Below are positions 5,419 through 45,081 of a stretch of DNA of 64,000 nt, piece after piece; position 1 is the stretch's first letter, and every line of letters starts with the position of its first letter. Both the position numbers and the translations under genes were made by a program. The stretch is from a virus: positions 69,857 through 133,856 of the IMG/VR virus record IMGVR_UViG_3300030430_005376; one strand, written 5' to 3'. The notes beneath the pieces are model-generated. The model was not told the origin of the DNA, made no database searches, and saw only the letters and a list, made by a program, of their open reading frames with translations.

Positions 5419-5636
5419 CCGAGTTCCTTAATCTGTTCTTTGAACAACTGACCTGCTCTTTTTCTTCTGACAGGATCGCTTGATATACTTTCCACGCTTT
5501 CAAATAAAGGTTCAAGCTCTTTCACGACCTCATCTAAGTAAATATTAATCTCTTCAATTTCTTTTTCAGACATACCTTCGCAAAAAGCATCTTTTTGCCT
5601 TGCGAGTTCATCAATAATTTCTTGGTAGTGTTTCAT
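5388..5636 (-). CDS. Small acidic helical protein between tape measure and baseplate genes
   Basis: An 82-residue, almost wholly helical, strongly acidic protein with no motif I recognise. It starts 7 bases after the tape measure stop and its 3' end overlaps the next gene by 31 bases, an overlap that is large for this operon and suggests coupled translation. By place it may be an assembly factor for the tail tip or hub, but this is inference. It is real rather than a shadow because it fills the only gap between two coupled tail genes in the right strand. Confidence 0.65.
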   Translation of the reverse strand: MKHYQEIIDELARQKDAFCEGMSEKEIEEINIYLDEVVKELEPLFESVESISSDPVRRKRAGQLFKEQIKELGWQEKLSKIF

Positions 5637-5643
5637 ATTTTTC

Positions 5644-7869: not shown

Positions 7870-7897
7870 GTTTTCTCCTATTTTTAAATAGGTCTAC

Positions 7898-8152
7898 TTA
7901 AATTTTTTGATTAATCATTTTTTCAAACTTGTCTAAGCTTGACATGTCAGGTGAAGATTGAGAATTACTTGATCTGTTTTCCATTGCTTTTTTCTTGTCT
8001 TCAAAATGTTTTGACAGTCGTTTTACGTACCATGTTCTGTATCGAACTGGTAATCTTCGCAATTCTGTGTATGACATACCCAGGTGCATCTGGAGCAGGA
8101 AGCACTCTTCTAAGAATGCTTCTCTCCAGTTATGTACTGGGCCAAAAAAACT
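7898..8152 (-). CDS. Frameshift extension of the hub/tail-assembly protein (63-residue frame with upstream open extension)
   Basis: The first ATG in this frame is at 8087-8089 and would give 63 residues, but there is no ribosome site before it. The same frame stays open upstream for 21 more codons, into the end of the preceding gene, and encodes protein-like sequence ('FGPVHNWREAFLEE' then 'MHLGMSYTELRRLPVRYRTW'). The two frames cross at a run of seven T (minus strand; 8144-8150). A +1 or -2 slip there would replace the last four residues of the upstream protein by this domain. Arrangement of a short protein plus a frameshifted longer form just before the tape measure is the well-known layout of tail assembly chaperones. 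Either that, or a homopolymer error in the sequence, explains it. Confidence 0.7.
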   Translation of the reverse strand, partial: SFFGPVHNWREAFLEECFLLQMHLGMSYTELRRLPVRYRTWYVKRLSKHFEDKKKAMENRSSNSQSSPDMSSLDKFEKMINQKI

Positions 8153-8960
8153 CTGTAGTTATAGGAAGCGATATGTCACTAACTGTGCCGCAATTTTGGC
8201 ATGTCATGCTATGCTTCATATTGATACCTGGTTCGTTTTCAACAATAAACGCTCTCAACTTTTTTGAGTCAAAAGCTGGCATATTCTTAATAAAGTGCTT
8301 AATTTTGAGTCTGTCTCTAATACCATCAACTGATGTGATTGTGCTTTCTAAGTAAGAAGTTATGTTGTTTTCTATCTTTGAACCTAGCGCTTTCGTTTTG
8401 TTTTTGCTTTCTATCCCTCTTCTTCTTTCCTCGCCGCCTGTCAAGTATTTAAAAGTTACTTTCTTCTTTGTCACAGGTAGAATATATTCAAAATCGTTAG
8501 TACCTGGCGCTGTTGGTTCTATTTTAAGCCTATTAATTTCAAGAGAAGATAAATCTGCTTCAAATTTATTGTTATGCCCACAGTTAGGACATGATGAAGA
8601 AGCCTTATAAGAAGGTCCGTATCCGGTGACTCTAATGCCTACCATTAAAGAAATTCTATCTCCAAGTATTAGATCTTCTGGGTTTATTGATTTATCAACA
8701 AGACATGACTTAATCAATTGTGAGATAACTGTGCCTTCTTTATGAAATGCGGGTGAAGCAAGAATATCTTCTTCATGAGCAGTCATTGACTTAATTTTCA
8801 GTGTTTCTCTATTGTACAAAACTGAGTCTGGATTGTATAGTGAACCACGTGAAGGAAGAGGAATAGCTTCGACTGGCACCTCCCATCCGAAATCTTCCTT
8901 CATAATATTTTGACGCATCATACCGTCGGGTGTTTCACCCATTAACTCTGTTTTTGACAT
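8130..8960 (-). CDS. Baseplate hub / tail assembly chaperone protein, T4 gp26-like, with zinc knuckles
   Basis: A 276-residue protein starting with a flexible segment and 'AIPLPSRGSLY', a motif typical of gp26-type baseplate hub proteins of T4-like phages. Two CxxC pairs ('CPNCGH' near residue 124 and 'CQNCG' near residue 255) probably bind one zinc ion. It ends in 'TTEFFWPST'. The T7 run inside the two Phe codons before that end allows a shift into the next frame (see the extension entry). It begins just after a strong hairpin terminator whose U-run abuts its GGAG ribosome site. Assembly role follows from family and position; a structural hub role is equally possible. Confidence 0.75.
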   Translation of the reverse strand: MSKTELMGETPDGMMRQNIMKEDFGWEVPVEAIPLPSRGSLYNPDSVLYNRETLKIKSMTAHEEDILASPAFHKEGTVISQLIKSCLVDKSINPEDLILGDRISLMVGIRVTGYGPSYKASSSCPNCGHNNKFEADLSSLEINRLKIEPTAPGTNDFEYILPVTKKKVTFKYLTGGEERRRGIESKNKTKALGSKIENNITSYLESTITSVDGIRDRLKIKHFIKNMPAFDSKKLRAFIVENEPGINMKHSMTCQNCGTVSDISLPITTEFFWPST

Positions 8961-20656: not shown

Positions 20657-21442
20657 TTAAATATCTAGATGATCGTAAAACATCACTTGCTGATTGTATA
20701 AGTCATCAATTGTCTTGATATTACTTTCATTTGTAGTTAACTTTTTGTATAGCTCAATATCTTTTGACCAAGCTCTGCCTGTCCACCACTCAAATCCGGC
20801 GTAATTACTTTTACTTAATGCACTACACTCATAAGAAGAGCCGAGATAAATGTAATCAAAACCACTATTTTGTGCAACTTGCTGCTCTACGTAATAGCTT
20901 ATTTTTCCTAAGTTGAGTTCAGGTGAAGCATAATCCCAAGAAAATTGAGTAGCTACAACCGAGTTGTTGACAACATCTAGCAGGGAAAAAGCGACAGGTT
21001 TTTTAAAATGATAAAAGACAATTGTTATACGATCGTCACCATAGTCAGATTTTGCAAACGGGTGATCAGCCCCGTACATATCTACAAAACCTCTGGCATT
21101 TAGATAAAGGTTGTATATCTTTATCATGGTCTCGACATCAAAACTGTCATAGAGCTTATAAGATAAATTGTTATCTTTGTTTAAAAGCTTCCTGTGCCTT
21201 TTTTTAAAAACATAATCACTAGGTTTCAACCTGGCTGTCCTGCTTTGATACCACACAGGAGTTCCGCTTTCCTTACATTTTCTAAACCAACTACAGTTAG
21301 GGTTATACCAAGTAGACGTAATTAACCACCCATTTTGTAAGGCGTAATCAAACTGATCACGCTCAAATATCGCAGATACAGGAGAATGTATTATTTCATA
21401 CTCTTGAGTTTTACCAGCGACGTGATCAAAAAATAGCTGCAA
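20657..21442 (-). CDS. GNAT-fold aminoacyltransferase resembling bacterial arginyl-tRNA-protein transferase (ATE/Bpt)
   Basis: A 261-residue protein of the same length as bacterial ATE/Bpt enzymes, which move Arg or Leu from tRNA to protein N-termini. Cys50 and Cys56 stand where the N-domain cysteines occur. They are followed by 'RTARLKPSDYVFKKRHRKLL' (68-87), the basic segment before the transferase core. Then come 'IYNLYLNARG', 'LGKISYYVEQQV' and 'FDYIYLGSSYE', the core GNAT pattern of this family. It lacks the exact CxxC cluster. The substrate in this phage is unknown: a protein N-terminus, a peptide or a polyamine are all possible. It sits 3 bases after the 200-residue gene of the island. 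Confidence 0.65.
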   Translation of the reverse strand: MQLFFDHVAGKTQEYEIIHSPVSAIFERDQFDYALQNGWLITSTWYNPNCSWFRKCKESGTPVWYQSRTARLKPSDYVFKKRHRKLLNKDNNLSYKLYDSFDVETMIKIYNLYLNARGFVDMYGADHPFAKSDYGDDRITIVFYHFKKPVAFSLLDVVNNSVVATQFSWDYASPELNLGKISYYVEQQVAQNSGFDYIYLGSSYECSALSKSNYAGFEWWTGRAWSKDIELYKKLTTNESNIKTIDDLYNQQVMFYDHLDI

Positions 21443-22050: not shown

Positions 22051-22863
22051 CTATTCTCCTAAAGAATACAAGTCAAAAAGACTTTCTAGTCTTCTCTGAT
22101 TTAACCATTTTAGGGAGATTCCATCTTTTATTTTTCTCGTTATTCCTGGACCATTAGAAGCAGCTGTAAAATTTATAGACCCACCGTAACTTACGCAAGG
22201 TATTCCATATACTTCAATTTTTTTAAATCTCTTAGAAAATTTTTCAACCCATGTATAAGTCTGATTAGGACATAAGTCAAAGTTGTCTGACTGAGATATT
22301 ATTATTCCTCCTGGTTTGAGTAGACTAAAAATTGCGCTCATTACTTCATCTGACATTATACCTTCAGAGGGAGTATCATGTTGAGGGTCAGTAATGTCTA
22401 GAAAGATAGCGTCGTATTTTTCTTTACAGTGTAGCGCCCACTGACATGCATCTTCGACATGGAGAACGCACCTTTTATCATTAAAAGAGTCAAGGTTAAG
22501 AGAAGAGAGATACTTTTTAGAAGCTTCAATGACTTCTACGTCTATTTCTACAAGATCTACAACGATATCATCATACTTTAATATTTCTCTAACCAGGCAT
22601 CCGTCTCCTCCACCGAGAACAAGAGTTCGGCTTGGTGAGTCCAGAGAGTTCAATACTGGGTGGACCATAGACTCGTGGTATTTTGCATCATCGAGTTCTG
22701 AAAGTTGAAGTATATTATCTAAAACTAATGTCTTGCCTAAAGAGCCTAATTCAACTACTTGAAGCTTTTGAAACTTGGTTAAACTCTCGTGTAAGACTTT
22801 AATCAGAGGAAATGTGTGTGCGTGTCCTTCGTTAGAGAGTACAAAAGTCATTTGATTTGTCAT
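22051..22863 (-). CDS. speE: Spermidine synthase (polyamine aminopropyltransferase)
   Basis: A 270-residue enzyme that transfers the aminopropyl group of decarboxylated S-adenosylmethionine to putrescine. Motifs are intact: the N-terminal beta motif 'GKTLVLDNILQLSELDDAKY' (43-62), with HE after it; the Rossmann loop 'LVLGGGDGCLVRE' (81-93) with Asp87; 'VDLVEIDVEVIEASKKYL' with Glu106; Asp138 in 'HVEDACQW'; and the catalytic 'YDAIFLDITDP' (150-160). It lies 8 bases after speD. Exact acceptor (putrescine, cadaverine or other diamine) cannot be told from sequence. An alternative ATG at residue 5 is possible. Confidence 0.92.
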   Translation of the reverse strand: MTNQMTFVLSNEGHAHTFPLIKVLHESLTKFQKLQVVELGSLGKTLVLDNILQLSELDDAKYHESMVHPVLNSLDSPSRTLVLGGGDGCLVREILKYDDIVVDLVEIDVEVIEASKKYLSSLNLDSFNDKRCVLHVEDACQWALHCKEKYDAIFLDITDPQHDTPSEGIMSDEVMSAIFSLLKPGGIIISQSDNFDLCPNQTYTWVEKFSKRFKKIEVYGIPCVSYGGSINFTAASNGPGITRKIKDGISLKWLNQRRLESLFDLYSLGE

Positions 22864-22871
22864 TTTAAAAC

Positions 22872-23336
22872 CTACGGTATTCTGCGAGATGCTACTTGAG
22901 TAGTTATCTCTCTTATGTCATAAAATTTACTTATGACGGATTTTACTTTTTCTACGTCAAAACTTTTGCATGAGTAACAGTCAAATGAAAAATACTCTAA
23001 CTCAGGAAAGGTGTGGATACTCAAGTGAGATTCAGCGATCATGGCAAACGATGAGTAACCGTATGACTCATTTTTTCTTTCTTGTAGCTTATTTCTCAGG
23101 TCTTTTGCTGATTTGCTCTCGCCAAGACCTTCAGATTCAAGATCCTGCAACACTCTTTTCATTTCGCAAGTTGCGTGAGGAAACTTAACTGTCACAGGAG
23201 GCAATATCATTGTCATGTCAATTTCTTCTATGATGGCTTCGAGCATGCTCACACCAACCTCAGGAGAAACTAAAGACTCTGGGTTCTTCACGACTGCGTC
23301 TATCATCAAGTGTAAACCGTCGTATTCAAAACTCAT
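22872..23336 (-). CDS. speD: S-adenosylmethionine decarboxylase proenzyme (prokaryotic class 1B)
   Basis: A 154-residue proenzyme that makes decarboxylated SAM, the aminopropyl donor for the next gene product. The motif 'AESHLSIHTFPE' (101-112) contains the self-cleavage site Glu102-Ser103, whose serine becomes the pyruvoyl cofactor. Cys120 and Cys123 in 'FDCYSC' match the conserved Cys of the family. Residues 40-95 are a longer linker than in the shortest class 1B enzymes. ATG overlaps the stop of the upstream gene by 4 bases. SpeD homologues are known in marine cyanophages; the pairing with speE here makes the route complete. Confidence 0.92.
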   Translation of the reverse strand: MSFEYDGLHLMIDAVVKNPESLVSPEVGVSMLEAIIEEIDMTMILPPVTVKFPHATCEMKRVLQDLESEGLGESKSAKDLRNKLQERKNESYGYSSFAMIAESHLSIHTFPELEYFSFDCYSCKSFDVEKVKSVISKFYDIREITTQVASRRIP

Positions 23337-23941
23337 GTCTTAGCTCCTAACACTTTAAATAGGTTTTTTCTGCCCAAATTACCTGTCCAGTGACAAGAAG
23401 AACAGCCAAAGACCAAATCAAAACTAGGTAAGTTATCTAGATTGAAATCATAGACTTCTTCTGTTTCAAACTTTAAACTCATGCCTTTAGGAAAATTTTC
23501 AGAATCTTTGTTTCTAAACCAAGTGTACTTTATAATAGGGCTGTCTTGTAAAAAGTAAACCCAGTTACCCTCGTCTAACTCATCAATTGAATGCCATCCT
23601 TCATAGTACACGTCGTGATGATGATCAAAATTAAAAATGCTAAAAGGCTCATCTTTCGGCAAGAAAGGTAATATTTGATGGTGATGTTCTGCTATTACAA
23701 CAGGGGTGTCTATGCTGGTTTTTTCTCTAATAACACTTTTCAACAATTCTATTTTTGATTGATTTACTTCGGGTGTTGGCAGATTATTTTCTTTAAAAAT
23801 CTTCATCTGCTCTAGCAGAGATATTTTACTGCCTTCAACATAGTCTTCGTAGACGGAAATTGTAGGACTATACGCATAATCAATGTCGATAGAGAGTATA
23901 TTCACGAAACGCTTCTTTTTAATTTTAAAATTCTGATACAA
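23333..23941 (-). CDS. UPF0489-like protein with ureohydrolase-type metal motifs
   Basis: The core has an Asp-x-Asp pair ('SIDIDYAYSP'), 'IAEHHHQILPF' and 'NFDHHHDVYYEG' (residues 101-114 in the long form), then 'GNWVYFL'. Such His/Asp clusters are the metal sites of the arginase/agmatinase/deacetylase fold, and the set resembles family UPF0489. Gene order before speD and speE suggests a role in supplying or freeing a diamine, for example from agmatine. The start is uncertain: the long form begins with TTG and overlaps the upstream gene by 17 bases, while a GTG at 23903-23905 gives 190 residues beginning just before the first strand and seems more natural. Confidence 0.7.
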   Translation of the reverse strand: MYQNFKIKKKRFVNILSIDIDYAYSPTISVYEDYVEGSKISLLEQMKIFKENNLPTPEVNQSKIELLKSVIREKTSIDTPVVIAEHHHQILPFLPKDEPFSIFNFDHHHDVYYEGWHSIDELDEGNWVYFLQDSPIIKYTWFRNKDSENFPKGMSLKFETEEVYDFNLDNLPSFDLVFGCSSCHWTGNLGRKNLFKVLGAKT

Positions 23942-24254
23942 CAGAATATTGAGTGTTGCCTATTTTTTTATACTCAAGTGATTTTGTTCGCTTTAAAGTG
24001 CGGTTAACCAAATTAGGATTTTCCTCAAGATGGCGCACTATCTTTCCTCTGGCGTTAGAATCTGCAGCAGTCCTTGCCAAGCTTGTCATTCCAGGTGCAA
24101 TAGGTGCACTTCCTAAAGCCATAAGCTTACCATCTTTCTCAACAACTTCATCGGGATCATGATCCCAAAAACCTGCGAGGTCTGCATTTTGTTCGTCAAT
24201 CTTGTCTATTGTTTCAACAATAATCTGCCTTAATTGCCTACGTGTTATTTTCAT
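23925..24254 (-). CDS. Leader-family protein 1 (MKITRRQLRQIIVE leader), 109 residues
   Basis: Shares an N-terminal helix of 14 residues with the next two genes upstream. The leader ends I-V-E before Thr15, close to the (I/L)xE cleavage rule of T4 prohead protease. The rest, a polar body with 'GSAPIAPGMTSLARTAADSN', shows no known domain. I infer that it is cargo of the prohead, trimmed by the gp21-like protease of this phage. The DNA of its leader is nearly the same as that of the 139-residue gene, so these two leaders are recent copies. Gap to that gene is 7 bases. Confidence 0.7.
   Translation of the reverse strand: MKITRRQLRQIIVETIDKIDEQNADLAGFWDHDPDEVVEKDGKLMALGSAPIAPGMTSLARTAADSNARGKIVRHLEENPNLVNRTLKRTKSLEYKKIGNTQYSVVSEF
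24220..24254 (-). repeat. Leader repeat, copy 1 (35 bp)
   Basis: 35 bases covering the start of the 109-residue gene match 24647-24681 at 31 of 35 positions by direct comparison. Three of the mismatches are silent or conservative in the leader helix. This marks a recent duplication of the leader rather than convergent selection only. Confidence 0.85.
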
Positions 24255-24261
24255 TGTAAAA

Positions 24262-24681
24262 TTACTCTCCTCTCAAAGCTGATTTTTTAATCATGACTTT
24301 GACCATATCTCTGTTGTCTAGACGACTTGGATGTATCAGGAAATCAATGTCGTCGTCTTTTAAGTTGTGTCTTCGAGCAACTTGCTTAAAAATAGCGCTG
24401 AGACCTGATATGCCTCCGAGTCGGTCCCGCACTCTAGAGTCCAGTGCCCCCTGCTTTACAAAAGTTAACACAACTAATCCTCTTCCGCCAAGAAGCTTAT
24501 TAGAAGGAGGTGATCCTTTCCTATAGTTGAGCTTAGGAAGAGCAGCATCGATGGTCTTGTAAAGATCGTCTATAATAGGTTCTGCTCTTTTTTCTAATTC
24601 TTCATAGTCTGCTACACCTGTCAATCGAGTAGGGAGTGCTTCGGAAATTATCTGCCTTAATTGTCTACGTGTGATCTTCAT
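24262..24681 (-). CDS. Leader-family protein 2 (MKITRRQLRQIISE leader), 139 residues
   Basis: Leader ends I-S-E before Ala15, a perfect (I/L)xE|A site for a gp21-type protease. The mature part (about 125 residues) is a mixed alpha/beta domain with 'LLGGRGLVVLTFVKQGAL' and a basic segment 'VARRHNLKDDDIDFLIHPSR', unlike the other family members. Domain not recognised. ATG overlaps the preceding gene by 4 bases. Likely a head-internal protein injected or packaged with DNA, by analogy with T4 internal proteins that share a short targeting leader; this is inference. Confidence 0.7.
   Translation of the reverse strand: MKITRRQLRQIISEALPTRLTGVADYEELEKRAEPIIDDLYKTIDAALPKLNYRKGSPPSNKLLGGRGLVVLTFVKQGALDSRVRDRLGGISGLSAIFKQVARRHNLKDDDIDFLIHPSRLDNRDMVKVMIKKSALRGE
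24647..24681 (-). repeat. Leader repeat, copy 2 (35 bp)
   Basis: Second copy of the leader DNA, 31 of 35 bases the same as 24220-24254. The third family member at 24678-24995 has a related leader with much lower DNA identity, so it split off earlier. Confidence 0.85.
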
Positions 24682-24995
24682 TTTATTTCTGGTCCAATAT
24701 GCATTCTAATTTGAGTTACAATACCGTTGAGTCTACCTCTAACTCTTTTGCTCATTTCTTCTCTTCTTAACATAGAATCAATATCCCGCGCAATCATTTC
24801 AAGTCGCATTCTGTCGTCAACTGGAGGCTTGCGAGGTCTATCTGATTTAAAAGCTGGATCATCCAATCCGAACTGGCCACCTGGTGGAATTGCTCCGGTG
24901 TCGCTCGACAGTGGCGCTTTGTATCCAGGTCCCGGGCCGTCTCCTGGAAAAGATTCTTCAATGATCTTTCTCAACTCTTCACGCGTGATTTTCAT
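24678..24995 (-). CDS. Leader-family protein 3 (MKITREELRKIIEE leader), 105 residues
   Basis: Leader ends I-E-E before Ser15. A Gly/Pro-rich linker (15-60) follows and then a basic helical end with 'RMRLEMIARDIDSMLRREEM' and 'RVRGRLNGIVTQIRMHIG'. No known domain. It overlaps by 4 bases on both sides, so it is coupled to the secreted 77-residue gene and the 139-residue gene. A DNA-binding or core role inside the head would fit the basic helix but is not shown. Confidence 0.68.
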   Translation of the reverse strand: MKITREELRKIIEESFPGDGPGPGYKAPLSSDTGAIPPGGQFGLDDPAFKSDRPRKPPVDDRMRLEMIARDIDSMLRREEMSKRVRGRLNGIVTQIRMHIGPEIK

Positions 24996-25225
24996 TTTTT
25001 ACATCCTTTAGGTAGTTGTGATTTAAGTTCTTTTTTGTAAACTTCTAGTTTTGGTTGTTCCCACTTGAGACGCGGACAGTACTCCTTGTGATCTTCTTTG
25101 TCTTGCAGAAAAAGTTCGAGCGCTTTAGCAGATCGCTCGAGGTCGTTGGCTTGTTGAGCAAAAGTGTATGTAGCTCCAAAAAGTGTGCCTGTTAAAACAC
25201 ACGTTACAAAAGTCACAGCCCTCAT
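24992..25225 (-). CDS. Small exported protein (signal peptide), 77 residues
   Basis: Residues 1-24 are a signal peptide (MR, then a hydrophobic run 'TFVTCVLTGTLFGATYTFA' and AQQ), so the mature protein of about 53 residues would be in the periplasm. Two Cys (near residues 50 and 75) could pair. No lipobox with a correctly placed Cys is seen. It overlaps the membrane protein before it by 4 bases. This membrane plus exported pair is the layout of phage spanins, but an outer-membrane lipoprotein signal is missing, so lysis is only a possibility. Confidence 0.65.
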   Translation of the reverse strand: MRAVTFVTCVLTGTLFGATYTFAQQANDLERSAKALELFLQDKEDHKEYCPRLKWEQPKLEVYKKELKSQLPKGCKK

Positions 25226-25491
25226 TCTGTCACCAGCCTTTCAATTCTACTCAGAATTTCTCTAACGTGTCCAAGATCGCTCTGAACTTTAATAAGAGTC
25301 TTTGTTGCTTCTTCTTGCTCTTCTACAGCTTCTTCTAATTCTGCAACGTGGCGCTCAAGATCACCTAAATCATTTCTAAGCTGAGCTACTTCTACGTTGA
25401 CAGTCCACACCCAACCTGCAAGAGGCAAGACAAGTGCTGACATGAGAAGTGATACTGCCTTCCAAACATCGTCTTTAGTTATAGCTGCCAT
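25222..25491 (-). CDS. Membrane protein with periplasmic coiled coil, 89 residues
   Basis: One membrane helix (residues about 11-30, 'AVSLLMSALVLPLAGWVWTV') followed by a heptad-rich coiled coil (33-85) that would face the periplasm. Topology fits an inner-membrane spanin or a holin-associated protein, and the next gene encodes a small exported protein. It has a strong AAGGAG site six bases before the ATG. It follows the basic 70-residue gene by one base. Function is not certain since no endolysin is found nearby. Confidence 0.68.
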   Translation of the reverse strand: MAAITKDDVWKAVSLLMSALVLPLAGWVWTVNVEVAQLRNDLGDLERHVAELEEAVEEQEEATKTLIKVQSDLGHVREILSRIERLVTE

Positions 25492-25492
25492 C

Positions 25493-25705
25493 TTATTCTC
25501 CTTTTAATGCTTTGCTTCTCTCAACAGCCCGAAGCTGTTTGAGAGCTTTTTTATAAGACATAGGTTTCTTAGAAAGTGCTTTTCGAGTCTTTCTACCCTT
25601 TTGTGGTTTCTTAGGGTAGACTTTGTAACCGCCCTTGACCTTTCTTATTTCTTCATCAACAATGTTTCTTATAAGTTCCCTTAAAAGGGCTGCTGGGACC
25701 TTCAC
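25493..25705 (-). CDS. Small very basic protein with leader-like N-terminus, 70 residues
   Basis: Residues 1-19 (MKVPAALLRELIRNIVDEE) are a helix of the same kind as the MKITR leaders. The remainder is rich in Lys/Arg ('KGGYKVYPKKPQKGRKTRKA', then 'LSKKPMSYKKALKQLRAVER'). Such a basic body after a leader would suit a DNA-condensing internal head protein, like small core proteins of other viruses. The match to the (I/L)xE rule is weaker here. Function is inferred from composition only. Confidence 0.65.
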   Translation of the reverse strand: MKVPAALLRELIRNIVDEEIRKVKGGYKVYPKKPQKGRKTRKALSKKPMSYKKALKQLRAVERSKALKGE

Positions 25706-27939: not shown

Positions 27940-29877
27940 TCAGATAACGTCCATGTCGAGGCAGGTAACAGTACCGTAGAAGTCAGCGCGAACCATCTTC
28001 TTCCCGTAGCGGGTCATCACGCCCTTACGGGGTGTGAAGTCTTCGGGAGCGAAGATCGTCGGTGTGACGATGAGTGGTACGTAAGGAGCGTAGACGTAAC
28101 CAGTCTCGAGGTAGGAACCTCCCTTGTAACCAACAAGAATCTTGTTGCGGGGGAAGTATGGGTCCTTGTAGACTGTGAAACGGTTGCTCAAGCTACCGAT
28201 TGCTGCTGCACCGAGTGAGAACTCAGAACCGACCTGACCCTGACCATCGATCTTGATGGAGGGCTTGTAGAGGACAGAAGCTTCGAAGATTGTAGCAACT
28301 TCAGGTGAGCACACGATGAAGTTTGCTGAACCACGAAGTGTCTTTCTGTGGATCTCGTTTGCAACGTCGATGATGGTTTCAACGAGAGTCTCGTACCATT
28401 CGCGGACGGTACCAGTAAACTGAGGACCTGTTGCGAGTGAAGATGCGAGCTCAACGGATGCACCGCTTCTCTTGTTAACGAACTTACCGGGTGAACGTGA
28501 CCAGAAGAAGTTCGCGCCACGAGCTTCAACGAGAAGGTCGTTGAGGATCTCACGGTCAATTTCAAGAGCGATCTGCTCAGAGAGGATCTGAGTGAGCTCG
28601 ACCTCAGCGTCCATGCTGTGGTAAGCGTTCAGGTCCTGAGCGAGTTCTGGTGACCAACGAGCACGAAGCTTACGTGTGGTAGCTGTGACCGCGATGGACT
28701 CGATCTTGATGTCAATCTCAGGGATGACAGGCTGTGGTGAAGACTCAAAGTTCGACTCAAAGGTAGGAATGGTGAGTGTTCCACCAGTGCCACCTTCTGC
28801 CTCAACTCTATCAGCGACAGCGAACGAAGCTGTAAGGTTTGTCGCCGCGTTGTGAAGAGCGCTTTCGACACCCTGCATAACGAAGAGCACACCGGTGTCA
28901 AGGTTGCCTGCAGCAGTGCTGGCAAGTGGGTTTGGAGTGAACTTAACAGAGCCTGCTGCACCAGTCATGGTACCAAGCTGGTTGAGACGACGAACGTTAA
29001 GAATACCGCTACCACCCTGCACGTTTGATGCAGGAACTGAGTAGTCTGCAACTGCGCCATCATCTGTGGCAGAGAAGAGAGCGATTGACTTAACAGCAGT
29101 AGGATCAAGTCTCTTGCCAGTGCCGCCAGTAAGAACAGAAGCTGAAACGATTAAGAACTGGTAGTCGAAGTCGCGATCAACGATGTGTTGTGTAACCTGT
29201 GGGTCGAACTGGATAAGCTTTCCGTCTGAACCACTAGTGGTAATTCTACCAGTAGAATCAACAACCTGCTGTGATCCACCACCATATGCACCGTTGTAAA
29301 CAACGAACTCTGCTGATGTACCTGTCAGTCTGACTCCTTCGTGAACGCGTGAGTAGGTAGTGCCAACGAGGTCGTACTGGCCACCTGTAGCATCAGAACC
29401 TGTGCGAACGGAAGAACCTGCTGGGTTGTTGTAAAGTGAGTCGCCCTTGTTGAAAGTAGCATCAGTACCTGCGAGGTCGCGGGAGGATCCTGACTCAAGA
29501 ACGTCATCACCACCAACGTCTGAACCGTAGGTGTAGTCAAGGTAGAAGAGCAGACCGGAAGGAAGGCTCATGGGCTGAATTGAGACGAGCTCGTTTGCAA
29601 CCAGACCGCCGAAAACGCGACGAACGATTGGGAACGCGATGTTTGAGAAGCCGTCAATCTGACCGGCTGATCCGCCGCTGCCGAGAACGTTAGCTTCACG
29701 AAGAACCTGGGCTGCCTGGTTCTCGAGAAGACGTGACATAGTCTCGCGACCTTGATCGCCGAGACCACGAAGTAGACCGGTACGGGTCCACTTCTCCATC
29801 AGTCTGTTACTTTCAGCACCAACGTGACGATCACGGATGCCTTCAGTTAACTGGTTTAAAGTAAATGAACGTGACAT
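27940..29877 (-). CDS. Major capsid protein (T4 gp23-like)
   Basis: A 645-residue capsid precursor. Residues 73-115 carry the gp23 pattern ('DGFSNIAFPIVRRVFGGLVA', 'VSIQPMSLPSGLLFYLDY'). The middle has an insert rich in Gly/Thr/Ser (about 115-370). The C-terminal 260 residues have the HK97-like core ending 'RADFYGTVTCLDMDV'. Residues 59-62 read LRE|A, a proper gp21-type cleavage site at almost the same place as the T4 cut (after residue 65). The gene has a much higher G+C content and C/G-ending codons than its neighbours, and a strong GGAG site, as expected of the most expressed gene. Confidence 0.95.
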   Translation of the reverse strand: MSRSFTLNQLTEGIRDRHVGAESNRLMEKWTRTGLLRGLGDQGRETMSRLLENQAAQVLREANVLGSGGSAGQIDGFSNIAFPIVRRVFGGLVANELVSIQPMSLPSGLLFYLDYTYGSDVGGDDVLESGSSRDLAGTDATFNKGDSLYNNPAGSSVRTGSDATGGQYDLVGTTYSRVHEGVRLTGTSAEFVVYNGAYGGGSQQVVDSTGRITTSGSDGKLIQFDPQVTQHIVDRDFDYQFLIVSASVLTGGTGKRLDPTAVKSIALFSATDDGAVADYSVPASNVQGGSGILNVRRLNQLGTMTGAAGSVKFTPNPLASTAAGNLDTGVLFVMQGVESALHNAATNLTASFAVADRVEAEGGTGGTLTIPTFESNFESSPQPVIPEIDIKIESIAVTATTRKLRARWSPELAQDLNAYHSMDAEVELTQILSEQIALEIDREILNDLLVEARGANFFWSRSPGKFVNKRSGASVELASSLATGPQFTGTVREWYETLVETIIDVANEIHRKTLRGSANFIVCSPEVATIFEASVLYKPSIKIDGQGQVGSEFSLGAAAIGSLSNRFTVYKDPYFPRNKILVGYKGGSYLETGYVYAPYVPLIVTPTIFAPEDFTPRKGVMTRYGKKMVRADFYGTVTCLDMDVI

Positions 29878-32074: not shown

Positions 32075-32632
32075 TTATCCAGCTGAGCCTAAGTATGATC
32101 TTCCTGAAATTAGACCTGCTACTGTGTCCTGAGATGCTACCTCAGGTGAAGTTTCGTGTGGTGAAGCTTGTCCGCCCAAACCTGATCCGAATTCGCTCTG
32201 CTGGGCAGGGTCTGGTGTGACTCCTGTAAATGCAGGTTGGTCATTAGCTGATACTGAGCCCGGACCAGGTGAAGTCAAAGGTGGAATGTAGGGAGTTGTT
32301 GGCGCCCCTTGACCTGCACCAAACTCTTTTTCATCTATTGTCTTGTCGTTGCTTCCAATATCAGGTGCGTCTACAAAATCGACATTAAAACCATCTAACA
32401 TTCTATTGCCTGTACCGCTATCAACAGCGCCGCCGTATGCTTCAAATGCTGCAGTGACGTCGCCCGACTGCACATTTTGAGACCAGACTTCTCTAATAGC
32501 GTCATCTGTCATGTCGCCAGCGTGTATAGGAGAAGCTGCATATGCTGATCTTAAATTCTCATTGAATCTTTTGCCAGGGCCTCCCTCGGTCACGACGTCT
32601 GGTGTAACTAAAATATCTCCTTTTCCTGACAT
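32075..32632 (-). CDS. Head-region protein, 185 residues, Gly/Pro/Ser-rich
   Basis: Mostly disordered composition with a short ordered-looking part near residues 25-90 ('AIREVWSQNVQSGDVTAAFE') and a Pro/Gly/Ser tail. No catalytic motif. It shares one base with the previous gene (stop/ATG), so it is coupled to the 76-residue coiled coil. Packaging and head context suggests a minor virion or prohead core protein; function unknown. Confidence 0.65.
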   Translation of the reverse strand: MSGKGDILVTPDVVTEGGPGKRFNENLRSAYAASPIHAGDMTDDAIREVWSQNVQSGDVTAAFEAYGGAVDSGTGNRMLDGFNVDFVDAPDIGSNDKTIDEKEFGAGQGAPTTPYIPPLTSPGPGSVSANDQPAFTGVTPDPAQQSEFGSGLGGQASPHETSPEVASQDTVAGLISGRSYLGSAG

Positions 32633-32862
32633 TATTGCTCCTCATTCTTTTTTTGGATTAATTTAATTCTTTCAAAAAGAAATTTTTGTTGTTTCTTTAA
32701 CTGGAGAAGTGCCTTTAGTTCTTTTCTAACTTCGTAAAACCGCCTAATGTCTTTAGAGTTTTTAGCTTTTTGGACCCTATCTTTTTGGTCAGCTATTTTT
32801 TGACGTTCTTCTTCTATTATTTTTTTTAACAAATCCTTTGTAAGTTTAGTAGGTCTAGACAT
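32632..32862 (-). CDS. Small basic coiled coil with leader-like N-terminus, 76 residues
   Basis: The N-terminus (MSRPTKLTKDLLKKIIEEER) has the same helix pattern as the leader family, with I-E-E at 16-18. The rest is a single long helix of Lys/Glu/Gln heptads ('LKALLQLKKQQKFLFERIKL'). T4 has small prohead core proteins (gp67, gp68) in this part of the map, of which this may be a counterpart. A cargo or core role is inferred from position and leader. Confidence 0.65.
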   Translation of the reverse strand: MSRPTKLTKDLLKKIIEEERQKIADQKDRVQKAKNSKDIRRFYEVRKELKALLQLKKQQKFLFERIKLIQKKNEEQ

Positions 32863-32912: not shown

Positions 32913-33452
32913 TTATCTATTTATTTTTGGAGCGAATGCCATATCTGCCCAGTTTCTTGCTGAGTCTCCAAATAGTTCCATAGGGTCTGACGCTTCTACA
33001 ATTCTAGCAGCTTCATCTGCAGGTGTCGAAGGCACAGCAGTGCCTCTTCTACCTTCAGCTCCTGCTTGAGCTTTTAAAGTTGAAGCAGCTGTGTCTGCAA
33101 AAATCTCACTCATAATCGGATCTTTAGTTACACTCGATATTAATTGATTTGCTCTGTTGTCTTGCTGAGGCTGTGTTCTATACACGTCTTCGTTGCTATT
33201 TTGACCATAGCTTACTTGATCTAAGTAACTTCCTCGATTTTGTCGAGCAGCAGGTGGACTTTCGTTTGTTTTGCCCATTCTTGGGTCAAGTCTTTGTCTG
33301 CCTATAACTCTACCTCGGCTTTCAACTGCTTCTTTTAGACTTCTCTTTTTTTCAATCGAGCTGCCCGGGCTCTGTATTAAACCTTCTGCCAAAATTTCAA
33401 CTAAACATTCCTTAACAATTGATTTAAGTACTTTTTTATTTACTTTGCTCAT
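32913..33452 (-). CDS. Head-region protein with leader-like N-terminus, 179 residues
   Basis: I take the ATG that gives MSKVNKKVLKSIVKECLVEI, since a GGGA site precedes it; a longer frame starts 13 codons earlier within the protease gene. The leader helix is followed by I-L-A-E|G (20-24), an excellent gp21-type site. A Gln/Arg/Pro-rich linker and a helical end ('EIFADTAASTLKAQAGAEG', 'MELFGDSARNWADMAFAP') follow. It overlaps the protease gene by 17 bases. A processed prohead core protein is the likeliest role. Confidence 0.68.
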   Translation of the reverse strand: MSKVNKKVLKSIVKECLVEILAEGLIQSPGSSIEKKRSLKEAVESRGRVIGRQRLDPRMGKTNESPPAARQNRGSYLDQVSYGQNSNEDVYRTQPQQDNRANQLISSVTKDPIMSEIFADTAASTLKAQAGAEGRRGTAVPSTPADEAARIVEASDPMELFGDSARNWADMAFAPKINR

Positions 33453-34059
33453 CTTTATCCCATGTAAGAATCTCATTAAAGATTCTATCAATCCTGTCGG
33501 TCCTGTTAAAAAAATTATTTAACTCTCTCGGTCTTATAGTTTTGCCCTCTTGAAGTCCCATAAAAGCACCAGGAGTTGATGGTTCGCTAACCATGTCAAA
33601 ACAAATTAATTGAAAATCATCTTGAACAACTTGTGTGTTACCTTGAGACGAAGTTGAACCAACACCCCTAGAGCTAATTCCTAAAGTTACACCGCTCTCG
33701 ATGAGTGATTGAATAATCTTACCGCTAGGTGTATCTAAAACTTCAATTGTCCCATAAACATCGTCACCTTGCATGTAAGCTTCTCTAACAATGTGAGATG
33801 CATTCTTTAGTTCAATTACAGAAGAATCTGGGTGATCACACTCTCCTAGCGCTCTGTTTTCTCTTATCAATTTTTGATAGTTTTCAACTTCTCTTTGAAG
33901 AATTGATCTCGGGTAAACTCTTCCATTTTGATTTAGAGTGTTAGCTCTTTGAATTATGCCTTTAAGCATAATTTTTCCGTATTTTTCTCTATTTTCTTTG
34001 ATTATTTCTTTATCACAGGTGATGGGCAACCACTCTCTAAGAACTTTAAGCTCAGACAT
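33436..34059 (-). CDS. Prohead core protease (T4 gp21-like serine protease)
   Basis: 207 residues from the ATG with GGAG nine bases before it (an in-frame start 9 codons earlier would overlap the previous gene by 34 bases). Family U9/S80-type protease: His76 in 'LGECDHPDSS', and Ser129/Ser130 in 'GVTLGISSRGVGS', with 'LKGIIQRANTLNQNGRVYPR' near the N-terminus. Length is close to T4 gp21 (212). It cuts scaffold, capsid precursor and internal proteins after (I/L)xE in T4. The many candidate sites of that form in this window's small proteins are thus meaningful. Confidence 0.92.
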   Translation of the reverse strand: MSELKVLREWLPITCDKEIIKENREKYGKIMLKGIIQRANTLNQNGRVYPRSILQREVENYQKLIRENRALGECDHPDSSVIELKNASHIVREAYMQGDDVYGTIEVLDTPSGKIIQSLIESGVTLGISSRGVGSTSSQGNTQVVQDDFQLICFDMVSEPSTPGAFMGLQEGKTIRPRELNNFFNRTDRIDRIFNEILTWDKDEQSK

Positions 34060-34915
34060 TTTCTTTCTCCGCACTCTTAAGCTCATTAATAAGCTTAGTA
34101 ATTGTTAAAAACTTAACTATTGACTCATCGTTTACATCTTGATTCTCTAATTTTTGTATCGAATTTCTAACTCTATCAACTTTCTCTATGAGTATCTTAT
34201 TGCTCTCATTTTCTTCAAAATTTTCCAACAAATCTAACGCAACTTGTCTTTTTTCTGCAAGGTAACTTGTCAGATATTCATCATTTTGAGATGAATAAAA
34301 AACATAATTGCTGATGATTTCTCTTTCTGAGTTTGATAAATTAGAATATTTGCTATTAATTTTCTCAGTCATAAGTTTTAAAATTAGCTTATCTGATTTT
34401 GAAGCATCGAGCTCGCGCTGCATGTCGTTCACGGTTTTTGTGGATTTTTCAGTAAGTAAATTTTCTCCAACTTTCTTCTCAAATTCAATCAACCTACCAA
34501 GATCAGGTGATTCTTTGCGCCACTCGTTAATGACTATTTGAATTGATCCGAGTTGTCTGTAGTTTGGAATGTTTTGATAGAAAAAATCTTTTCTGTTAAT
34601 TTTATAGTTTATATCTCTAATCAGTTTTGATTTTTCTATTGAAAGCTTTTTAGTATCAATTTTTCTAGCAGCTCTTTTAGCTTCAGTGAGCACTGACGCA
34701 ACTATGTGTGTGTCGCTTACAGTTGCATTTGCGAGAGCGTTAAAAAGTCTAAACTCTTTGTGAAGTTCACTACCTTTAGCAAAGTGTTTTTCAATTAATT
34801 TAGTACCTACGCGGGCGTCGCTTTTTCTTCCTTCGACTATGCAACTAGTAATGTGCTGTATTAATAGTTCGTACACTAAGCCTACGTTTCTTTTTTTATT
34901 GTGTTTGATGCTCAT
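34052..34915 (-). CDS. Head/core protein between portal and protease, 287 residues
   Basis: An almost wholly helical, highly charged protein that starts basic ('MSIKHNKKRNVGLVYELLIQ') and holds long heptad-like segments up to the end. It overlaps the portal stop by 4 bases and the protease ATG by 8. In T4 the small core proteins gp67 and gp68 are encoded in this place, but this one is about twice as long. I know of similar proteins in marine T4-like phages only from memory and without function. A prohead core or portal-associated role is inferred. Confidence 0.7.
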   Translation of the reverse strand: MSIKHNKKRNVGLVYELLIQHITSCIVEGRKSDARVGTKLIEKHFAKGSELHKEFRLFNALANATVSDTHIVASVLTEAKRAARKIDTKKLSIEKSKLIRDINYKINRKDFFYQNIPNYRQLGSIQIVINEWRKESPDLGRLIEFEKKVGENLLTEKSTKTVNDMQRELDASKSDKLILKLMTEKINSKYSNLSNSEREIISNYVFYSSQNDEYLTSYLAEKRQVALDLLENFEENESNKILIEKVDRVRNSIQKLENQDVNDESIVKFLTITKLINELKSAEKENV

Positions 34916-36882
34916 TTTTCCTCCTCTGATGAATTAATCTCAGAGATAACTCCTGTATAACTTTTAGGTTTTCCATAGACATTATCAAGCCTAGAGAGTG
35001 TTGATTTAATACTGTTAGTCATCTTAGTATTTTGAATAATTTTGTTATCCAAATACTCATCTATATTTATATCTTCAAACTTAAGGTTTCCTGCAGATTT
35101 TAAATTATCCATCTCTCGAGGAATACCTGTTACGTCATTTTGTCTTCGAGAGCCTGCGTCTCTTCTCAGAGAAGTAAAATCTTCAGCAAAATTAGCGTCT
35201 GATTTTCTCTGACGCTTTCTCCTTTTTTCTTCATACTCGTGTCTAAGCTCTTCTCTCTTTTCGTCGTCTGTTAGTTCATCTTTCTCGTCATCTTCAGAGA
35301 GGATAGAAGTTATGCTATCAATTTTGTTTTTGACCCGAATCGGAACATTTACATCTTCAACTGAGTCAGATTCCGAGAGACCTGCGTCTCCTTCCGGAGG
35401 TGTTATACCTAAGTCTATAGACTGTTCAATCTCTGCGCCTCCGCCACCCGGGAGGGGATCAGAAGGTCCTTCAGCTTGCGTAATCTGAGTTGACTCAATT
35501 TCAAGTTCAGAAATTTTGTCAAGTTTCTGTCCTTTCTTAATTAATCTAATCGCATCATCTGTGAGCCTGAGAATGTTTTTCTGAACCCAACTTTTATCAA
35601 CAAGCCCTGGTGTTTGCAGTGCAGCCCCAGCTGTTTCAAATTTTGATCTAAAAAGCTCTAATTTTTGTTGTTGAGCAATTGTTGAAGGGTTAGACAAAGA
35701 CAATGTGAAATCAAGCAAATCAGTGTCAGTAAATCCGTGACAGTATAAGTGAATAATTGCTATTTTGTTCATCTCTGCGATAACAGTTCTCTGAATTCTT
35801 GAAATAGTTCTTGAGAATCTTATATCTTCCATAGAGAGAGTTGCCTTAGCACCAAGACCTTCATCATAACCTAAGTACGCTTTTGGTATTTTGAGGGCTG
35901 CAAAAAGTTTTTTCTGTATGTATTCAACATCGTTAGTTTCGCCTGCAACTGTGCCACCCGCAAGTGTAACAATATCTGTGCCTGACTCAGAACCTCTAAC
36001 TGGAATAAAATAATCTTCATCGACAGACAGCGGATTGTATCTTAAATCTACCTTACCTGTGTTTTGGTCCGTAATTGATGCCCTCTTCAATGAAGACTGT
36101 GCACGCTCCATGTATGCAGGAATTTCTTCAGGTGGCACATTACCTACATCGATCTTGAAAACTCTTCTTTCTGGCGCTCTAACAATTCTGTAAACAAGCA
36201 TCGCGTCTTCTAATAAGATTAACTGGCGCCAAATTCTTCTTGCAGGTTCTAAAACAGAAGACCCATATGGGATAAAGGCATCGTTACCTAAAAGACGCAT
36301 GTGTGAAATCTGCCAATTTTCTAAAACTTGATTACCTTGTGTCACCCATCTGAAGCGTACTGCCATCGGGTCCTTTGGATCAAAACCTTCTTCTCTTTCA
36401 ACTTCAGAAATAGGAAGAGGATAGGCGTTTATGACACCAAGTTCTGGACTTACATCGTTAAACAGAAAGTGATCTCCATACTTGCACAAATTTCTGACCC
36501 AACTAGTCATGTTAAATTCTACATTTAGTGTGTCATAAAATAAGTCATCTAGTAATTTTTTAATCTTCACATTATCTGAGTGAATATGAAGAACTCTCCC
36601 ATTCTCATCTGCAGAAGCAGTTTCTTCGGCGTATATATCGAGAGCACTACCAACCTCAGGAGTGTACTCCATTTCTGAGAAATCCGAATATCTCGCCATT
36701 CTATCATAAGTTCCATAAGCCGACATAGCGTTGCTGTAGACTTTGCTCTGATTCTTTCTAAACATTTCAAATGCTGATGAAGTATACTTGTCATCTGGAT
36801 TTATAATGTTTCTTTTGACAACAGGCCCAGAACGAAAAAGCCTAGTAAGCCGCTGAAATATGTTTGATCTACTCTCTGCCAT
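34912..36882 (-). CDS. Portal protein (T4 gp20-like)
   Basis: A 656-residue portal that forms the dodecameric DNA gate. Residues 40-420 contain the gp20 pattern: 'ALDIYAEETASADENG', 'GDHFLFNDVSPELGVINAYP', 'LEDAMLVYRIVRAPERRVF' and 'MEDIRFSRTISRIQRTVIAE'. The last 200 residues are polar and charged ('EEKRRKRQRKSD'), more than in T4 gp20 (524 residues). It lies 9 bases after the terminase gene and overlaps the next gene by 4. Confidence 0.93.
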   Translation of the reverse strand: MAESRSNIFQRLTRLFRSGPVVKRNIINPDDKYTSSAFEMFRKNQSKVYSNAMSAYGTYDRMARYSDFSEMEYTPEVGSALDIYAEETASADENGRVLHIHSDNVKIKKLLDDLFYDTLNVEFNMTSWVRNLCKYGDHFLFNDVSPELGVINAYPLPISEVEREEGFDPKDPMAVRFRWVTQGNQVLENWQISHMRLLGNDAFIPYGSSVLEPARRIWRQLILLEDAMLVYRIVRAPERRVFKIDVGNVPPEEIPAYMERAQSSLKRASITDQNTGKVDLRYNPLSVDEDYFIPVRGSESGTDIVTLAGGTVAGETNDVEYIQKKLFAALKIPKAYLGYDEGLGAKATLSMEDIRFSRTISRIQRTVIAEMNKIAIIHLYCHGFTDTDLLDFTLSLSNPSTIAQQQKLELFRSKFETAGAALQTPGLVDKSWVQKNILRLTDDAIRLIKKGQKLDKISELEIESTQITQAEGPSDPLPGGGGAEIEQSIDLGITPPEGDAGLSESDSVEDVNVPIRVKNKIDSITSILSEDDEKDELTDDEKREELRHEYEEKRRKRQRKSDANFAEDFTSLRRDAGSRRQNDVTGIPREMDNLKSAGNLKFEDINIDEYLDNKIIQNTKMTNSIKSTLSRLDNVYGKPKSYTGVISEINSSEEEK

Positions 36883-36891
36883 TAAAATTTC

Positions 36892-38517
36892 CTACTTTAT
36901 TACCCACATGTAATCTTGAGGTATTATACTTCGATTTTTTGTTTTATTTAGGTCTTGCTTCACGTTACTGCCTACACTAGAGTTCTTCCCGCTATAAACT
37001 CCTGTAGGAGAAAAAACCTGATCAGGTGTATCGTTGTAATTTCTTTGATTTTTTGATATTGCGTTTAGCATTGCTTCATTTAGTCCAGAATTTGATTTTG
37101 CGTACTCTGAAGCGCCGTCGTACAACCACGACCCTATTGCTAAACTCATAACTAGGTCGTCATTGAAACCTGATCTTGCTTGCGCTCGACCTGTATTCCA
37201 AGTAAAGACTTTTAATTCTTCATAGAATCTTGAAGAATAAGACATAAGTGTTCTGTTTCTCAGAACTTCTTCCAGTTTAGCAAGAATTGTAGCACGAGAC
37301 TTACCAGAAGTTGTAAACCCGCCGACGTCGGCAGAGGCTGGTGGGACGTAATCACCTAAATACGCTTGTTTCTTTCTTCTATAGTATATTTTTGGATACT
37401 GTAGTTCTTGCAACTTTAGTATAGTTGCGTAACCATAGCTGTTGTTCTCTGGACAAACAAGTGCTTTGTTGTATTTCAATCCAAATTCATTTATAAGCTC
37501 AGCAAAAGTATCGGGTCTAATCTTACCTTTGTATTCAGCTACAATTTCACTTTTTGTCGTATCTATGATATGGAAAGTTGAGTAATCCTTTGAGTCACCT
37601 CTCGATACATCTGCAGATAAGATATACTCGTGTGAACTCATTGGGTATTTCCATATCCAGACATTTCTATCAAGCCCAGCTCTTTCTACAGGTTTTTCAA
37701 CGCAACTTCGAAGCCATTCTAGTGTGTTATTATCAAGAAAAGTTTCGCCGCTCGTAGCGAAATCGCACAAGTATTCTTGAGCAATCTGTCGCTTGTTCAT
37801 ATTTCGAGTTGTCTTCTCAAACCAGTCGTCGTCTCTCTCCGGATGAACATTCCAGGGTAGGTTTATTGCGTTAAATTCATTCAATCCTGCTTCTGCGTCG
37901 ACATACAATTTATGATACTGGCCTCCGACACCGTTGGGGGTTGACAAAATTATAACTCTACCGCCAGTAGAAATAGTCGGATATATACCAGTCCATATGG
38001 TGTCAAAGTTTCTAACAAAAGCAGCCTCATCAACAATTAGCAGAGAAAGTGCTTCAGATCTACCTGCGTCTTCTGATGTTGGTACGGCTTTTATTTCTGA
38101 TCCGTGGCTAAATCTAATTTTTTGCTTATTGTTTTCAACTATCTCTGGTAACAACAGCCACTTTGGAAGTGCTCTTATCATAGTCTTTACTTTTGTGATA
38201 AAGTTTTGTGCAACTGTCAGTTTAGTTGCAATGATAAGAATGTTCTTCTCTTTTTGAAAGATAGCCATCCAAACAGCGTATGCAGCTACCAAAGTTGATA
38301 AGCCTAACTGTCTAGACTTTAATATAATATTAAATCTGTGTTCTAGAAATTCTTCGACACAATCATCCTGAAAAGGATAAGTGTCAAAAGAAATAAGCCC
38401 TCTTACAGGATGTTGTATTTTCAAGTAATTCTTAAAGAAATAGTTAGGATCTTTGCCGCATTTGATTATTTCTTTTACTTGGAGCTGTTTGTTGTATTTC
38501 GCCATAGCAAAATACAT
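36892..38517 (-). CDS. terL: Terminase large subunit (T4 gp17-like)
   Basis: 541 residues, the ATP-driven DNA packaging motor with nuclease domain. Walker A is 'SRQLGLST' (68-75), with Leu in the usual Lys place; Walker B 'LLIVDEAAF' (159-167) and motif III 'RVIILSTPNGVGG' follow. The nuclease domain has 'ILSADVSRGDSKDY' (first Asp), 'VCPENNSYGYATI' and 'GFNDDLVMSLAI' (last Asp). Length is close to T4 gp17 (610). The start could also be the ATG at residue 5, as neither has a strong ribosome site. Confidence 0.95.
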   Translation of the reverse strand: MYFAMAKYNKQLQVKEIIKCGKDPNYFFKNYLKIQHPVRGLISFDTYPFQDDCVEEFLEHRFNIILKSRQLGLSTLVAAYAVWMAIFQKEKNILIIATKLTVAQNFITKVKTMIRALPKWLLLPEIVENNKQKIRFSHGSEIKAVPTSEDAGRSEALSLLIVDEAAFVRNFDTIWTGIYPTISTGGRVIILSTPNGVGGQYHKLYVDAEAGLNEFNAINLPWNVHPERDDDWFEKTTRNMNKRQIAQEYLCDFATSGETFLDNNTLEWLRSCVEKPVERAGLDRNVWIWKYPMSSHEYILSADVSRGDSKDYSTFHIIDTTKSEIVAEYKGKIRPDTFAELINEFGLKYNKALVCPENNSYGYATILKLQELQYPKIYYRRKKQAYLGDYVPPASADVGGFTTSGKSRATILAKLEEVLRNRTLMSYSSRFYEELKVFTWNTGRAQARSGFNDDLVMSLAIGSWLYDGASEYAKSNSGLNEAMLNAISKNQRNYNDTPDQVFSPTGVYSGKNSSVGSNVKQDLNKTKNRSIIPQDYMWVIK

Positions 38518-44640: not shown

Positions 44641-45081
44641 TCATAATTTTTCAATAACTTCAATAGGCTTAATTTCAATTCTGCCTACCGAGGACAAGAG
44701 TGTCACAACACCAGAGTTCTTAGCCTGTTCCCTTGTCGCACACTCATTTGGGACCCACATTGACACAATCAAACCCATCTCTTCTGATCCTTTGTAATTA
44801 AAGCTAACCGTGTCGCCTGCCTCAAAAGAAAATATTGCTTGACTTTTTTGTGTACTAGAAAAATCTTCTTTTATATTTTTGAGGTTTTGTCTAGCTATTT
44901 TTTTCAACTCTTTTGGTGTATGTCCAGTTTCACTTATTTTTGACTCTTTGCCAGCTATTTTTGCTTTTCTTATTTCTTGAGCTCTGTTGGGAATTCCGTC
45001 AGGCTCAGACAAAGCTCGTTCTTCCTTGTAGCTCTTTCTTATTTTTCTTAAATCAGAAGCTGATATTTTCCTTTTTGCCAT
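44641..45081 (-). CDS. Basic N-terminal / beta C-terminal protein, 146 residues, unknown
   Basis: Residues 1-70 are helical and basic, with 'MAKRKISASDLRKIRKSYKE' recalling in a weak form the leader family. Residues 85-146 form a small beta domain ('AGDTVSFNYKGSEEMGLIVS', ending 'RIEIKPIEVIEKL') that looks like an SH3-like fold. No homologue recognised. It lies 55 bases before the MoxR gene in the same direction. Nucleic acid binding would fit the basic start but is not proven. Confidence 0.65.
   Translation of the reverse strand: MAKRKISASDLRKIRKSYKEERALSEPDGIPNRAQEIRKAKIAGKESKISETGHTPKELKKIARQNLKNIKEDFSSTQKSQAIFSFEAGDTVSFNYKGSEEMGLIVSMWVPNECATREQAKNSGVVTLLSSVGRIEIKPIEVIEKL

Follow-up and report, generated by a model that had tools for sequence, protein, structure and literature searches.

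A short, apparently cleavable leader shared by unrelated proteins of large uncultured phages, probably a T4-type capsid-targeting pre-sequence

Bacteriophage T4 packages a handful of internal proteins, and the functions of few of them are known; IPI blocks a restriction enzyme and Alt modifies RNA polymerase. In T4, the first ten residues of a protein are enough to direct it to the head, the determinants of processing lie at residues 8 and 10, and the prohead protease gp21 cuts after L/I-X-E (PMC9026906). Internal head proteins of SPN3US and phiKZ carry N-terminal propeptides that are also removed by a prohead protease (PMC5694885). The present analysis concerns a 64,000-nucleotide stretch of viral DNA (the window), bases 69,857-133,856 of a 137,660-base IMG/VR virus record (IMGVR_UViG_3300030430_005376). 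An earlier note on the window had proposed that it encodes a family of small proteins whose common N-terminal leader ends in a gp21-type cleavage motif.

Three open reading frames (ORFs) of the window, encoding proteins of 109, 139 and 105 residues, lie adjacent and head to tail on the minus strand. As described in that note, they share the start MKITR(R/E)(Q/E)LR(Q/K)IIxE, which is followed by Thr, Ala or Ser, and their bodies are unrelated. A Pfam search of the three proteins found no domain, and a PHROG search returned a single weak match (E = 0.04). The 109-residue protein has a possible second cleavage site, IDE↓Q (the arrow marks the cleavage position), and its body has a homologue in L004 that is 59% identical. 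Across the whole record, a leader profile detected ten leader genes, and none in reversed N-termini. The leader genes beyond the window lie at record positions 3,404-8,458 and 38,738, again on the minus strand.

What could such a leader do? It is probably a T4-type capsid-targeting pre-sequence that is cut by an S77 protease, leaving the bodies in the head and probably to be ejected. In this model, a conserved basic, probably helical 14-residue segment, MKITRRQLRRIIKE, is fused to many unrelated proteins and would bind the prohead core, whereby the tagged protein would be carried into the assembling head. The phage's own S77 (gp21-like) protease would remove the leader after [LIV]xE at Glu14 (E14). 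Where a Glu follows this first site, a second LxE about seven residues downstream would probably be cut instead. The mature body would remain beside the DNA inside the head and, judging by T4, would probably be ejected into the host. The earlier suggestion that the leader may mark cargo for the head is partly supported: the sequence gives strong support to a cleavable leader, and core binding, targeting to the head and packaging are inferred from what is known of T4.

The leader resembles the T4 capsid-targeting sequence (CTS) of IPI, IPII and IPIII in that a short N-terminal segment ending in IxE is attached to unrelated bodies, in a phage that has both a Gp23 capsid and an S77 enzyme for its protease. 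It differs in sequence, since T4 uses MKTYQEFIAE whereas here the segment is MKITRRQLRRIIKE, to which LLxE may be added. No homology to the T4 CTS (MKTYQEFIAEA) was found; the T4 group and that of G000 have only the initial M-K and the final IxE in common. The systems also differ in scale. A blind search of N-termini, described below, finds 2-4 members in T4, whereas up to ~43 per genome are found here, in long arrays and with predicted enzyme cargo. SPN3US and phiKZ are similar in that the head cargo of a large phage has an N-terminal extension. However, most of their propeptides exceed 100 residues, and as a rule they are not one shared short tag (the paralogs gp53 and gp54 share 15 residues), and the cleavage motif is AXE in SPN3US and SXE in phiKZ as opposed to [LIV]xE here. 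A literature search found no report of the leader, only work on T4, P1 and SPN3US, which is weak evidence because most subscription journals lay outside the search. The leader sequence is best read as new, and its repertoire as about tenfold larger than that of T4.

Evidence for cleavage comes from the way the leader ends. Its conservation is ~3.5 bits at E14 and falls to ~0 by residue 23. P3 is Ile, Leu or Val in nearly all leaders, and E14 is present in 573 of 595 anchored leaders. At residue 15 (P1') the leaders have Glu, Ala, Ser, Thr, Gln, Val or Tyr; Gly, Asp, Lys, Arg, Leu, Ile and Pro hardly ever occur there. In single-site leaders whose P1' is not Glu, this position is Ala, Ser or Gln in 73% of cases, compared with 18.7% after [LIVM]xE motifs of the bodies (p = 1e-58). 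The capsid protein of the window served as a yardstick. Its N-terminus includes QAAQVLRE↓ANVLG, which probably corresponds to the position where T4 gp23 is cut. In the 76 readable sequences among 80 relatives fetched, this position reads L(R/K)E, and P1' is Ser in 26, Ala in 23, Gln in 23, Val in 3 and Phe in 1. The match between the Ala, Ser and Gln after the leader site and those after the capsid site indicates a common and unusual P1' preference.

Further evidence comes from leaders whose P1' is Glu. A second [LIVM]xE ending at residues 19-25 occurs in 260 of these 329 leaders (79%), but in only 48 of 187 leaders (26%) with Ala, Ser, Thr or Gly at P1' and in ~14% of body windows. The coupling between P1' Glu and a second site has p = 4e-33, or ~1e-24 when one protein per body family is counted. 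P1' of the second site is Gln in 20.5%, compared with 4.4% after the body motif (p = 3e-15). Cleavage of the leader after [LIV]xE is thus well supported by these patterns, and the phage prohead protease is the proposed enzyme. The suggestion that IxE before Thr, Ala or Ser fits the T4 protease rule holds up well, as the module ends at E14, P1' matches the capsid site and a second site compensates for an unsuitable first one.

The protease that would perform this cleavage is encoded in the window. The gp21-like protease and the capsid with LRE↓A that were noticed from the letters alone are both real. The S77 match to PF03420 scores 96.2 bits against a curated cut-off of 27, the gene lies between portal and scaffold/capsid, and the order of S77, Gp23 capsid, portal and terminase is T4-like. 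The protein in the scaffold position has 25 [LI]xE sites, compared with 10.5 in shuffled sequences, as expected for a core protein that gets chopped up. Linkage to gp21 homologues, which the earlier note had proposed to follow with a leader profile in related phages, is seen beyond the window as well. A total of 65 leader-bearing records were searched for S77, including three metagenome-assembled genomes (MAGs) searched apart. All 17 virus records of 135 kb or more had S77, as did, at the level of the MAG, two of three MAGs. Among the first 40 leader records, S77 and Gp23 occurred in exactly the same ten (S77 in 10 of 10 Gp23-bearing records), and an HK97-type capsid occurred in none of the 40. 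Of 50 random IMG/VR records, none had S77 and nine had HK97-capsid matches (three above the cut-off), but these records were all <130 kb and so are not size-matched as a baseline for S77.

Several results weigh against a cleaved, head-targeting leader. S77 is missing from two of four leader records of 100-135 kb and from 41 leader records below 100 kb. The short records are probably genome fragments; they are read in this way because the first 29 of them have neither a Gp23 nor an HK97 capsid. The 134.7-kb record G029 starts inside the tail-gene block, which lies away from the head genes in the window's record. An expanded leader was not found in the cultured S77 phages phiM12, Cr30, KVP40, Melnitz and RaK2. 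T4-like late promoters (TATAAATA) were not enriched upstream of leader genes. PHROG matches named baseplate hub and internal virion protein are probably explained by the leader-bearing SLT transglycosylase protein. The conservation of E14 is partly built in, because the patterns used to collect leaders include Glu14; of 22 leaders that form an independent set from the neighbourhood of capsid genes, 16 have E14. The second-site coupling has p = 0.57 in this independent set, which is too small to repeat it. Finally, many leader proteins come from related genomes, for which the one-per-family test corrects only in part.

How widespread is the leader? The first degenerate DNA pattern matched 45 IMG/VR stretches, and those loci held 154 distinct leader ORFs. 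Two DNA patterns together with a profile of the first 22 residues, applied across 1.94 Mb of IMG/VR loci, yielded 603 non-redundant leader proteins. The same profile had no match in a 0.79-Mb control made up of IMG/VR loci that a random 15-mer had picked out. The phages that bear the leader are large, uncultured and mostly marine. The number of tagged genes varies, from four in a 160-kb record to ~29 in an 83-kb record, ~29 in G029 (135 kb) and ~43 in a 202-kb record. A tblastn search with the leader against 50,697 annotated phage records matched only a 484-kb uncultured phage and found none in isolates. The leader did not prove common in genomes without a gp21-like protease, because in addition to the S77, Gp23 and HK97 counts given above, one leader pattern retrieved only three contigs from 257 Gb of bacterial and archaeal genomes, all of them in metagenome bins. 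The MAGs holding leader contigs are labelled Methylococcaceae TMED69, Halobacteriovorax and Candidatus Peribacter. These labels give no more than a hint of the host, because the contigs may have been binned wrongly.

The leader behaves as an add-on to proteins that exist without it. In a leader-bearing 5'-nucleotidase, six residues separate Glu14 from the domain. In XacN1, BUCT-ZZ01 and Phosso the homologous protein lacks a leader and opens directly with the domain; the homologues of immuto and HTVC008M are extended at the N-terminus by other sequences, in which LLEE or LVQE lies close to the end. Likewise, members of a small cargo family, GDVILTGRFKNKR, begin with the present leader at seven loci and with another short start, MKFIKPFALFE, in LR756502, a 642-kb uncultured phage; homology within the family begins right after either start. 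Among the other cargo, recognizable domains include LysM (in a protein of the window's own record), SLT transglycosylase, DUF192 (in a protein that also has an HExxH motif) and LRV/HEAT repeats. HExxH metallopeptidase-like motifs are found in several different leader proteins, which are candidate packaged peptidases judging by this motif. Most bodies match nothing. The structure prediction for a conserved 82-residue cargo family is of low confidence, with a predicted local distance difference test score (pLDDT) of 61.

One alternative, which we regard as unlikely, is that the leader is a tag for prohead-core assembly only. Tagged scaffold, core or internal parts would be cut and then lost or kept, and few or no effectors would be injected. 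It draws on T4, whose core proteins gp22, gp67 and gp68 are degraded (PMC9026906), and on divergent leaders of the 76- and 179-residue proteins encoded beside the protease, at the position of T4 core genes. However, the 583 bodies compared past residue 24 form 332 BLAST families, 259 of which are singletons. More than 300 families, mostly singletons, and arrays of up to ~43 genes in one genome suggest cargo that varies more than they suggest an essential scaffold, and bodies that are enzymes or enzyme-like (5'-nucleotidase, SLT transglycosylase, HExxH proteins, LysM) are likewise at odds with a purely structural tag. A second alternative, for which we see very little room, is that the leader is never cut and, as a basic amphipathic helix at the N-terminus, has some other role in the infected cell, for example binding a membrane, nucleic acid or a phage hub protein. 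The segment is indeed basic, and a low-confidence model makes it helical: a single-sequence model of the 139-residue protein has a leader helix at 5-14, a low-confidence linker at 15-24 and an alpha/beta body, with a low mean pLDDT of 58. Such a helix leaves unexplained why the leader ends sharply at E14, why capsid-like Ala, Ser or Gln follows, and why a second LxE compensates for a P1' Glu. That the shared start is a DNA-level artefact without protein function, arising from mobile or recombinogenic sequence or recent gene-family duplication, is hardly tenable: tandem arrays and internal leader copies suggestive of recombination or gene fusion point that way, but leader codons agree at only 51% of identical-amino-acid positions within one genome, indicating that the protein is conserved and not the DNA, and the protein motif and its P1' coupling recur across divergent phages.

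Internal leader copies were found at 29 places in 566 leader proteins scanned and at none in reversed bodies. Their Met is often replaced by Ile or Val. The internal copies are possibly gene fusions or polyproteins. Polyproteins would call for cleavage sites upstream of the internal leaders, but [LIVM]xE is not significantly enriched there (13 vs 9 expected, p = 0.07).

Is this leader the only one of its kind? A blind search was used that looks in each genome for N-termini that are alike while the bodies differ, without the leader as input. In T4, the top group was MKTYQEFIAE↓A, the experimentally established CTS, and this recovery validates the method. In the window's record and five leader genomes, the search returned the present leader, and in LR756508 it returned a related one, M(K/R)L(T/S)ERKLRRIVKEE. 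Almost nothing was returned when it was run on internal Met windows. In LR756502 the search found at least 30 proteins, within 200 kb, that share the tag MK(H/Y)LKTYK(I/L)(F/Y)E↓S, and conservation of this tag stops at the Glu. This tag is like the present leader in ending in [LI]xE before Ser; unlike it, the sequence is unrelated and the S77 match of LR756502 is weak (1.8e-5, below the cut-off). Nine other S77 phages (phiM12, Cr30, KVP40, Melnitz, RaK2, HTVC008M, P-SSM4, RM378 and Mel-JY01) gave no comparable group, so S77 alone is not sufficient and the blind method does not fire everywhere. In the Flavobacterium phage immuto (NC_055915.1), a far-T4 isolate, three proteins start with FDLKKFLVENKLTxNSxLLKE or close variants. 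This start is probably another lineage-specific leader.

The targeting model can be extended, more tentatively, to an abundant clade of large uncultured phages that would use the head as a loadable delivery device. Each genome would encode tens of fast-changing effectors that carry one cleavable tag and are injected with the DNA; lineages of the LR756502 type would have acquired another tag to the same end, by evolving it or by a swap, and some cargo would be made as internal-tag fusions. We hold this wider picture to be a possibility with slightly less than even prospects. If the tag does the same job as that of T4, sequence alone names hundreds of candidate packaged proteins, mostly orphans, in uncultured phages. 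It would also provide a rule for predicting the mature N-termini of packaged proteins, along with new targeting tags by which proteins could be loaded into phage heads. The question of what proteins a large phage brings into the cell ahead of any gene expression would become directly testable.

Table 1. Leader genes, candidate leader genes and head genes of the window (positions in the window).
Feature	Positions	Strand	Evidence
Leader-tagged protein, 109 residues	23925-24254	-	leader MKITRRQLRQIIVE↓T encoded at 24213-24254; leader profile 37.1 bits
Leader-tagged protein, 139 residues	24262-24681	-	leader MKITRRQLRQIISE↓A encoded at 24640-24681; leader profile 41.2 bits
Leader-tagged protein, 105 residues	24678-24995	-	leader MKITREELRKIIEE↓S encoded at 24954-24995; leader profile 29.0 bits
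70-residue protein, leader not clearly distinct from background	25493-25705	-	1.6% of controls score as high
Gp23-type major capsid protein	27940-29877	-	PF07068 5.6e-78; motif LRE61↓A62 encoded at 29695-29703
Probable prohead scaffold (gp22 position), 477 residues	29925-31358	-	inferred from gene order and composition
76-residue protein, divergent offset leader MSRPTKLTKDLLKKIIEE	32632-32862	-	score 11.2, above all controls
179-residue protein adjoining the protease, divergent leader MSKVNKKVLKSIVKE↓C	32913-33452	-	score 10.6, above all controls
gp21-like prohead serine protease (Peptidase_S77), proposed leader-removing enzyme	33436-34086	-	PF03420 2.4e-27; phrog_207 head maturation protease 3.2e-53
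T4-type portal protein (context)	34912-36882	-	PF07230 2.3e-72
Terminase large subunit (context)	36892-38517	-	PF03237 2.2e-16
146-residue protein, very weak leader-like start	44641-45081	-	score 1.9, above all controls; marginal
188-residue protein, leader not supported	46394-46960	-	5.6% of controls score as high

Less perfect leaders had been proposed for four further proteins of the window. Leader scores were compared with those of 251 internal controls (maximum -10.3). The proposal stands for the 76- and 179-residue proteins, which exceed all controls, and is not supported for the 70- and 188-residue proteins (Table 1). The marginal start of the 146-residue protein was absent from the earlier note.

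Other genes of the window were recognized by their domains. Neighbouring genes at 22051-23336, immediately downstream of the leader genes, encode a spermidine synthase (PF01564, 2.4e-34) and an S-adenosylmethionine decarboxylase (PF02675, 7.6e-19), and by these matches the gene pair is a predicted phage polyamine pathway. A 416-residue protein near the replication genes (45129-46379) has a PAP2-superfamily phosphatase domain (2.7e-14). Unusually for a phage, the protein encoded at 20657-21442 has the C-terminal domain of an arginyl-tRNA-protein transferase (PF04377, 2.6e-7).

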